This document shows, in pieces, positions 1,062 to 3,796 of a stretch of DNA of 64,000 bases (positions are counted from its first letter, which is position 1; the number at the start of each line of letters is the position of its first letter). A program made the position numbers and the translations under genes. Origin of the DNA: Treponema sp. J25 (GTDB taxonomy: Bacteria; Spirochaetota; Spirochaetia; Treponematales; Breznakiellaceae); NCBI RefSeq assembly GCF_004343725.1, contig NZ_PTQW01000041.1:1-64000 (forward strand), written 5' to 3'. Under the pieces are notes generated by a model. It saw only the letters and a program-made list of their open reading frames with translations. It was not told where the DNA came from and searched no databases.

Positions 1062-2021
1062 TTATCGATCCTTCGGTTTTACCGTATAAAAATACCGGAA
1101 AGAAACCGCCAAGCCTTCGAGGGGCCGGGGCATATTGTGACTCACTTCCATGGCAAGGGTATGCTCCTGGTCGGTATACCACAGGCCACCACTCAGGCGA
1201 GCGTCGTAGCTCACCGTCGTAGAAAGCCACTGGTCCCCCGACCGGGCTGGAAGGGCAAGGCCCTGGACCAGGCGAGCCTGTAGGGCAACCGATCGGTTTA
1301 CCAATATCATGGTGCCTGTCGTAAGTCCTACCGAGAAGGGTTCCCAGTAGGAAGTCCCCTCACGGCTTCCCGGGAGGCTAGTCCCAACACGGAGTCCCAG
1401 CGTAAGGCTTATCGGATCGGTGTAGCGGGTATACTGCCAAAAAAGATCCAGGTAGTGAAGGAGGCCTCCGGTCTGGATGGTATTATCTTGGGTTGCGACC
1501 CCTTCGTTTATCCCGGTTGGAAAAGTCCAGCTTGCCCCAAGCCGATGTTCTCCCCGATTCGTATGGCCTATCCAGGCAGCTTCTACAGTTGCATCTCCCT
1601 GAGCAACGACAGGGGAGACCATATCGATGGTGGCGAGGGGCAGGCGAAGGTAGAGAGGAAATCCAAAAGAAAAATACCAGCGTTGATTGAGTAGGACATC
1701 CGCCGAGGCTTCAACGCAAAGTATCGCCTGGGTATCTCCCTGTACGATAGGAAGGACCGTGAGTCCCCCTCCAAGGGTACTTTGCCAGGGCCACTTTCCC
1801 TGAACCGCCATGCGGTTGTGGGATGTTTCCTGACTTTCAAGGGAAAGTACGGCCGAGAGCATCCATGCCATGCCAAGGAGCATTGGGGAGATAGAGCGCA
1901 TACCTGGTTTCAGGTGCTCTTTACCAGAAGGCAGCCGCCGGCTCGGTCGCTTTCTTGGTGTACGTTGCCTATCCTTGTTCTTCCCCTTTGACAACATTTC
2001 TCCAAGAATCCCCTGACTCAT
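1062..2021 (-). CDS. Outer-membrane beta-barrel-like protein, 319 aa
   Basis: The protein has a basic N-terminus of about 40 residues, a hydrophobic signal segment (residues 41-62), and then alternating strands rich in aromatic, Gly and Ser residues to the C-terminus. This is typical of an outer-membrane barrel, and segments such as GASWTFPTG recall Phenol_MetA_deg/FapF-like channels. The start at 2021 overlaps the C39 peptidase stop as ATGA and has GGGAGGAGG 6-8 nt upstream, which implies translational coupling. The ATG at 1901 would give an ordinary signal peptide but has a poor ribosome site. The pairing with a periplasmic C39 peptidase recalls the fapD-fapF arrangement of Pseudomonas amyloid secretion. 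That likeness is inferred from gene order and fold type only. Confidence 0.7.
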   Translation of the reverse strand: MSQGILGEMLSKGKNKDRQRTPRKRPSRRLPSGKEHLKPGMRSISPMLLGMAWMLSAVLSLESQETSHNRMAVQGKWPWQSTLGGGLTVLPIVQGDTQAILCVEASADVLLNQRWYFSFGFPLYLRLPLATIDMVSPVVAQGDATVEAAWIGHTNRGEHRLGASWTFPTGINEGVATQDNTIQTGGLLHYLDLFWQYTRYTDPISLTLGLRVGTSLPGSREGTSYWEPFSVGLTTGTMILVNRSVALQARLVQGLALPARSGDQWLSTTVSYDARLSGGLWYTDQEHTLAMEVSHNMPRPLEGLAVSFRYFYTVKPKDR

Positions 2022-2679: not shown

Positions 2680-2712
2680 TTGACAATATCACGGGGGGGG
2701 GGGGGATACAAT
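2680..2712 (+). promoter_or_regulatory. Promoter with 13-G tract in the spacer (probable phase switch)
   Basis: TTGACA (2680-2685) and TACAAT (2707-2712) are separated by 21 nt made of ATATCAC, 13 consecutive G (2693-2705) and A. Losing four G would give the ideal 17-nt spacer, so slippage could switch the downstream gene on and off. T. pallidum is known to carry variable poly-G tracts in promoters of tpr genes and TP0126. The divergent C39 gene starts 36 nt from the -35 box and could be affected too. Confidence 0.6.
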
Positions 2713-2760: not shown

Positions 2761-2898
2761 ATGAAAAAGGTAATTGCGTCTTTACTGGTCCTGTTTTTAG
2801 GTGCTAGTATGGTGATGGCTGAGGTGCCAAAAATAAAAAAGCCATTCCAGGTATGTAAAGTAAGAACAGCTTTCAATTGCCTTTTACATGGGCTTTAA
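2761..2898 (+). CDS. Short secreted cationic peptide, 45 aa
   Basis: An ATG with TGGAGG 8 nt upstream opens a 45-codon frame. Residues 1-20 are a textbook signal peptide ending AMA-like (MVMA). The mature part would be about 25 residues, rich in Lys and Arg, with two cysteines (C32, C40). It lies behind the poly-G promoter and 26 nt before the CPBP protease gene. It could be a genuine secreted peptide such as a bacteriocin or signal, or the stub of a longer exported protein truncated by deletion. The frame is also open upstream through the G-tract from a TTG at 2680, so tract length could in principle act on translation as well. Confidence 0.5.
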   Translation: MKKVIASLLVLFLGASMVMAEVPKIKKPFQVCKVRTAFNCLLHGL

Positions 2899-2923: not shown

Positions 2924-3796
2924 ATGGAAATCCGTTATCCGGGTATTAAACAGACGATAGGCATGTTAGCCCTGATAGTGCTGTTCCAGGCGGTCGCAGG
3001 AGCGGTATTGGGCATTCTGGCAAATGTCCTCCATGTGCCAGCGGATACCACCCTGATTGGAGGGCTGGCAAATACCTTTGCCTTTGGCTTTTTTATTCTT
3101 CGCTCCAAGAAATTCCTCAAGGAACCCTTTACGCAGAGGTTCCCCTTACCCCCCTTTGATTGGCGATATCTGGTTATCGGAAGTATTTTAATGGTGGGCC
3201 TTTCTATTGTTCTTTCAGAACTTGACAATCTTACTCGGGTAGTGCTTCCCATGCCTGAGTTTTTTCAAAACATTTATGGCTCCCTTTTCCAGAGCGAAGG
3301 AGGTTTTGTCTCTTCTTTCTTTACCCTCTGTATTGTGGCCCCTATAACTGAGGAACTTTTCTTTCGGGGCCTTGTCCTGCGGGGCTTTTTAAGCCGCATG
3401 GCAAAAACAAAGGCTATTTTATTATCGGCCCTGCTATTTTCTTTGATTCATCTCAGTCCCTGGCAATTAATCGGGCCATTTATTATAGGGAGTATCTTCG
3501 CTGTTATCTATATTGAAACGCAGTCATTGCTTCCTACTATTTTGCTGCACAGCCTTTTTAATTTTCTGCCCCTCCTGGTTATGTCAGTTCTTAAAGTAAG
3601 TATCCCTGGCTATTCAGTTACCGAGTATTCGGTGGTGGAATTCCAACCCCTCTGGTTTGACCTCCTCGGACTTTTCCTAGTAGGAATAGCCCTCGTGCTC
3701 TATCGCATGTTCTTTGCACCAAAGGCACCGAGCCCAATCTCTGGCGGTACCGACGGCACCGAAGGAAAAAATGCTCCTTCCTCTTCGTCATCGTAA
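2924..3796 (+). CDS. CPBP-family intramembrane metalloprotease, 290 aa
   Basis: Several transmembrane helices frame the CPBP (CaaX protease/bacteriocin-processing, Abi) motifs: EELFFRG near residue 145, a conserved His in FSLIHLSPW, and HSLFNF near residue 209. The glutamates and histidines form the metal site of this family. Relatives process prenylated proteins in eukaryotes and give bacteriocin self-immunity or processing in bacteria. The start at 2924 has AGTGAGG 6 nt upstream; an ATG at 2888 lies inside the peptide gene and has no site. The C-terminal tail after residue 265 is a polar Ser/Pro/Gly extension ending in five serines. It probably shares the transcript with the short peptide, whose processing or immunity would be a natural role (inference). 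Confidence 0.85.
   Translation: MEIRYPGIKQTIGMLALIVLFQAVAGAVLGILANVLHVPADTTLIGGLANTFAFGFFILRSKKFLKEPFTQRFPLPPFDWRYLVIGSILMVGLSIVLSELDNLTRVVLPMPEFFQNIYGSLFQSEGGFVSSFFTLCIVAPITEELFFRGLVLRGFLSRMAKTKAILLSALLFSLIHLSPWQLIGPFIIGSIFAVIYIETQSLLPTILLHSLFNFLPLLVMSVLKVSIPGYSVTEYSVVEFQPLWFDLLGLFLVGIALVLYRMFFAPKAPSPISGGTDGTEGKNAPSSSSS

Follow-up and report, generated by a model that had tools for sequence, protein, structure and literature searches.

What does a run of 13 consecutive G do when it lies between the two boxes of a promoter, and which genes would respond if its length changed? The question arises from a 64,000-nucleotide stretch of the Treponema sp. J25 genome (hereafter the window; positions 1-64000 of contig C41 in a draft assembly of 3.18 Mb and 66 contigs), for which the original prediction was a slippage switch acting on a small secreted peptide and a CPBP protease, and perhaps on a divergent C39 peptidase. 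Comparison with a paralogue and with related spirochaetes makes it probable, in our judgement, that slipped-strand phase variation at the poly-G promoter spacer controls a Fap/Nap-like secreted-peptide system, probably of bacteriocin type.

The promoter and the G tracts of the genome

On the forward strand, a -35 box TTGACA (2680-2685) is followed by the segment ATATCAC, the 13-G tract (2693-2705), a single A and a -10 box TACAAT (2707-2712), so that the boxes, the 13 G, the 21-nt spacer and the 17 nt that it would measure with 9 G are all as first described. The two boxes flank a homopolymer tract, as a promoter-spacer switch of the TP0126 or porA type requires. The tract is the sole run of G or C longer than 7 within the 64-kb window, and because dinucleotide shuffling yields more 8-G words than the window holds, a single long tract is unremarkable by composition and its placement is the argument.

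Pattern searches of the whole genome, in which tract lengths are assembly consensus values, revealed 14 tracts of at least 9 G and 6 of at least 10 G. Of the latter six, four are preceded by TTGACA and followed by a -10 box, an arrangement absent from all 30 of the control tracts that are exactly 8 G long (the first 30 of 82 such tracts; Fisher p = 2.5e-4), and a reversed-pattern control in the same genome gave no match. These four promoters (C12:126336 and C12:128005, each with 10 G; C37:4934 and the window, each with 13 G) all stand upstream of genes for peptides with a signal sequence or a GG leader. As the C12 pair are duplicates and the C37 and C41 copies are paralogues, they amount to two independent instances.

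Other long tracts deserve separate mention. A nine-C tract within the spacer TTGATT-18-TATAAT (G000:C42:34786) lies directly 5' of a CheW-like gene (MAETHQYLTLSIEGERYAIPVLKVREVLEY...) and forms a weaker fifth case, in which a chemotaxis gene is possibly phase-variable. An 18-G tract (G000:C53:27517-27534) has no promoter boxes around it and lies 61 bp short of the end of its contig, where the assembly may be broken. In two orthologous lipoprotein genes, at G000:C14:150219 and G068:C127:4102, the signal sequence contains a run of 9 or 10 G, and both genes are out of frame in their assemblies; the run is probably a translational phase switch conserved across two genera, and long G tracts therefore seem to be used elsewhere in the lineage. 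Two complete relatives have very long tracts, of 45 G (G028:C1:2493625-2493669) and 36 G (G168:C1:279759-279794), along with many others of more than 10 G.

Secreted-peptide cassettes in the window and in relatives

Downstream of the window promoter, a Shine-Dalgarno-like GGAGG (2749-2753) precedes a gene for a 45-residue peptide (2761-2898, forward strand), a truncated member of the cassette family described below that consists of a conserved signal sequence, MKKVIASLLVLFLGASMVMA, and 25 unique residues. The match of this peptide to the leader profile ends at about residue 30, and it has no GG, the motif expected of a class II bacteriocin leader (PF10439). Its 25-residue tail, EVPKIKKPFQVCKVRTAFNCLLHGL, has a charge of +4 and two Cys, and the short peptide could itself be a product. 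DNA similarity between the window and the other cassettes stops near 2830 and restarts within the next gene, and thus the mature peptide and its first partner have probably been deleted from the window copy. That next gene (2924-3796, forward strand) encodes a CPBP/Rce1-like membrane protein (Pfam PF02517, 1.4e-22), the N-terminal half of which is 46% identical to a protein of the Treponema caldarium cassette, and which, judging from sequence, is a probable immunity or processing partner. The target named in the original prediction therefore stands in part: both genes are there, but the peptide is a truncated copy, and intact cassettes carry a bacteriocin-like GG-leader peptide together with probable immunity genes.

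On the opposite strand lies a stand-alone C39 peptidase gene (2018-2644; Pfam PF03412, 8e-16), the product of which begins with a signal-like hydrophobic stretch and keeps all of the active-site residues Gln, Cys, His and Asp in the alignment. Fap/Nap-type hybrid secretion requires such a stand-alone enzyme with an intact active site and a signal sequence, the latter judged here from the hydrophobic N-terminus. The nearest named model of the window protein is FapD (NCBIfam C39_FapD, 9e-9, below cut-off), and since it scores 34.9 bits against the curated cut-off of 330 of the FapD equivalog (NF058616), we call it FapD-like rather than FapD. The gene that overlaps its end (1062-2021, reverse strand), and that adjoins the C39 gene in the relatives examined, encodes a probable outer-membrane beta-barrel partner. 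This protein has weak barrel similarity alone (OMP_b-brl_2, 0.15), a profile search of PDB sequences and Pfam gave neither FapF nor a useful PDB match, and a single-sequence structure model reached a pLDDT of 35.

A paralogous cassette on contig C37 is 92% identical to the window over the promoter, the leader and the start of the C39 gene. Its peptide is intact, with 120 residues comprising a signal sequence MKKVIASLLVLLLGASMVMA, later ...FADVEGIALGEQDSAAVKGG, and then a distinct mature part that is not bacteriocin-like. Behind this peptide gene, in the place of the CPBP gene, the C37 copy has a membrane-anchored retropepsin-like aspartyl protease (L087:3477-4430; Asp_protease_2, 6.6e-6). A leader-profile search found no further convincing cassette in the genome besides those of C41 and C37.

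Orthologous cassettes are present in the finished genome of T. caldarium (G027), in G067 and, twice, in G068 (contigs C132 and C219); in all of them a gene for a stand-alone C39 peptidase diverges from the peptide gene and has a barrel-like gene behind it. Where a cassette is intact, its peptide combines a Sec-like signal with a conserved leader that ends in VKGG or VEGxG and with an unrelated mature part. In T. caldarium and G068 C219 the mature parts are Gly-rich and bacteriocin-like (VIGAVVGAFSGAVSG...WGAVTGL), with which weak Gly-zipper and Bacteriocin_IIc matches agree. Differing small membrane proteins are encoded 3' of the peptide genes, namely a 60-residue protein and a half-length CPBP relative in T. 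caldarium and the CPBP protein only in the window. This combination of hypervariable mature peptides with changing small membrane or CPBP proteins points to bacteriocin-type peptides with immunity. More distant members of the family (G162, G071, G077, G003 and G178) have the C39-barrel pair and leader peptides of the ...VEGxG type, and lack a poly-G promoter there. In distant relatives of this kind (L123, L124, L126 and L127), a small lipoprotein gene (SCQNEGRWYPEAEVSV...) that is absent from the window cassette directly precedes the C39-barrel pair.

Alignment of the six cassette promoters revealed that the -35 region is kept up to the tract in all six and that the -10 box, followed by CAAG, is kept in five; the box is TATAAT in four of the five cassettes other than that of the window and is deleted, together with the leader region, in G068 C219. 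The tract itself measures 13 G in the window, C37 and T. caldarium (spacers of 21, 20 and 20 nt), 8 G in G068 C132 (15 nt) and 9 G in G068 C219 (no spacer remaining), and in G067 it is an interrupted stretch of 16 nt, G7-T-G2-C-G5 (23 nt), which from its sequence seems locked. Conservation of the boxes while the tract length varies is as expected for a slippage switch. None of the assembled alleles has a 17-nt spacer, and those with spacers of 15, 20, 20, 21 and 22 nt are all predicted to be off or weak.

The second instance, on contig C12, involves a different kind of peptide system. Here, two tandem genes encode 73-residue peptides with the leader MNGFTEVSSLELEQIEGG, each behind a promoter of the form TTGACA-AATTTC-G10-TAGGCT-TATTAT or -TATCAT, in which either TAGGCT, at 16 nt, or TATTAT/TATCAT, at 22 nt, may be the actual -10 box. 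Adjoining them are genes for a peptidase-containing bacteriocin exporter (TIGR01193, 629 bits against a cut-off of 524) and a HlyD-type adaptor. The peptides have a GG leader and score 19.5 bits with PF10439 (class II bacteriocin with double-glycine leader; gathering threshold 27.1). When relatives were searched for such an exporter cluster, the sole match was one to TIGR01193 in T. caldarium that is partial, interrupted by a stop and below the cut-off.

A probable promoter-spacer switch and its alternatives

Near-identical promoters with G runs of other lengths, found in the genome and in related spirochaetes upstream of peptide genes, suggest that random gain or loss of G probably flips these genes on and off in single cells. 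The G tract would act as a hypermutable spacer in a sigma-70-type promoter, where slipped-strand mispairing would alter the distance between the -35 and -10 boxes, giving 17 nt at 9 G in the window and at 10 G in the copies with TATAAT, and cells would shift stochastically between weak and strong transcription. The peptide would presumably be exported by Sec and then cut behind its GG-type leader by the periplasmic FapD-like C39 peptidase that is encoded divergently, and the cleaved peptide would probably leave through the neighbouring barrel. Because the window copy lacks a mature peptide, what the switch would control there is the remaining leader together with the CPBP gene; an intact copy is present on C37. 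The poly-G switch first proposed thus gains strong comparative support from paralogous and orthologous promoters that keep their boxes and differ in tract length, and what had to be amended is its target. A wider reading, which we advance tentatively, is that two unrelated secreted-peptide systems of environmental treponemes (the Fap/Nap-like cassette with a periplasmic C39 peptidase and the class II-type cluster with an ABC exporter) are under the same kind of poly-G switch, such that production of hypervariable antagonistic peptides, and perhaps immunity, would be stochastic and bet-hedged in single cells.

Several features of the window copy would also fit a relic, in which the switch works in the intact cassettes and the tract of this decaying copy no longer controls anything useful; we regard this as a serious minority possibility. 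The window peptide has lost the GG motif and the mature part, its -10 box is weaker than that of all TATAAT orthologues, the promoter has an extra A and a 21-nt spacer, and decay is seen in other copies too, with the -10 box lost in G068 C219 and the CPBP protein reduced to half-length in T. caldarium. Against this, nothing interrupts the 13-G tract of the window, the reading frames of the C39, barrel and CPBP genes remain open, and the cationic tail with its two Cys could be a product. Whether the peptides are antibacterial at all is a further matter: the promoter switch could be as proposed and the peptides could instead be fibre, adhesin, signal or autolysis peptides, a reading for which one may cite the closeness of the window C39 protein to FapD among named models, the mature part of the C37 peptide, unlike a bacteriocin, and the Neisseria Nap peptides, which induce autolysis and had no inhibitory effect on other bacteria tested (PMC11798529). 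We consider it the less likely reading, as a toxin with its immunity better explains why hypervariable mature parts occur together with changing small membrane proteins, and the Gly-zipper or Bacteriocin_IIc-like matches, weak as they are, lean the same way.

That the tract is static, or merely tunes the spacer with no switching of length on a biologically relevant time scale, appears improbable. In its favour, the count is 13 G in each of three copies, the tract of one relative (G067) is interrupted and stabilised, and poly-G spacers are widespread in bacteria. Against it, orthologues differ in length (8, 9 and 13), and in T. pallidum comparably long G runs are variable within isolates, with 7 to 11 G at tprL (PMC7864442). 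Reciprocal switching, with one tract serving the divergent promoters of both the peptide operon and the C39-barrel operon, is very unlikely. In the C37 copy the minus strand does offer TTGATT-17-TGTTAT, placed where it could serve the C39 start, yet the best minus-strand matches reach 7-8 of 12 positions and a usable spacing is not kept across orthologues. With no conserved minus-strand promoter containing the tract, and with minus-strand boxes that are weak and unconserved, we rejected the suggested control of the C39 promoter. Least credible of all is an artefact of sequencing or assembly; the draft has 66 contigs, homopolymer consensus lengths are error-prone and the 18-G run lies close to a contig end, but the same promoter with 13 G is found in a finished relative and in the 92% identical paralogue.

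Relation to known switches and peptide systems

The type of switch that we favour, slippage in a poly-G promoter spacer, is known. The T. pallidum precedent named at the outset bears it out, as the TP0126 promoter has poly-G between its -35 and -10 boxes and is transcribed best with a 17-nt spacer (PMC7864442). TP0126 is an OmpW homologue, however, so that its tract drives an outer-membrane porin in another sequence context and not a secreted-peptide cassette. The same can be said of the classical case, porA of Neisseria meningitidis, which shares the poly-G spacer and spacing-dependent transcription (PMC7864442, PMC3639595) but is a porin gene of another phylum. Poly-G promoter spacers are not rare either, and we rejected rarity as an argument because at least 118 stretches in GTDB genomes have them, many 5' of genes for predicted secreted or surface proteins.

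It is the use of the switch on such peptide cassettes that appears unreported. Our searches of the open-access literature brought up no bacteriocin-like peptide under a promoter-spacer switch, and the sole close match was the nap island of Neisseria gonorrhoeae. Bacteriocin-type signal genes are described in T. denticola, and the text searched there does not refer to phase variation (PMC11879956); according to a 2015 account, no bacteriocin had ever been isolated from a spirochaete (PMC4319587). Phase variation has been studied mainly on the surface antigens of pathogens. Here the same switch would act on bacteriocin-like cassettes in spirochaetes, among them the cultured, free-living T. caldarium, so that a harmless organism could serve to test how peptide warfare is stochastically controlled, what it costs and how cells protect themselves.

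Among secretion systems, the class II bacteriocin clusters with a TIGR01193 exporter, represented by the C12 locus, share double-glycine leaders and poly-G promoters of the same layout, but their C39 domain is inside the exporter, their peptides have no Sec signal, and the locus is separate from the window. The nap island resembles the cassettes in that it has peptides with a GG motif, a stand-alone C39 peptidase, an immunity-like gene and homopolymer tracts inferred to be phase-variable (PMC11798529), and it encodes a FapF-like channel where the cassettes have the probable barrel. The original statement that no such switch was known on a peptide/protease locus thus holds only in part. The nap tracts are placed within the coding sequences of napR and napC rather than in promoters, and the nap peptides are without shown sequence relation to those of the cassettes. 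The Pseudomonas Fap system likewise combines a Sec-exported periplasmic C39 peptidase, FapD, with an outer-membrane barrel, FapF (PMC5557850). The likeness to Fap is a partial one, in that the window C39 protein matches the FapD model at 35 of 330 bits and the barrel is not recognisable as FapF, and the substrates here have clear GG-type leaders. The GG-type peptides of the cassettes are clear candidates for what periplasmic FapD-like C39 peptidases cleave, a question that the Pseudomonas work had left open (PMC5557850).
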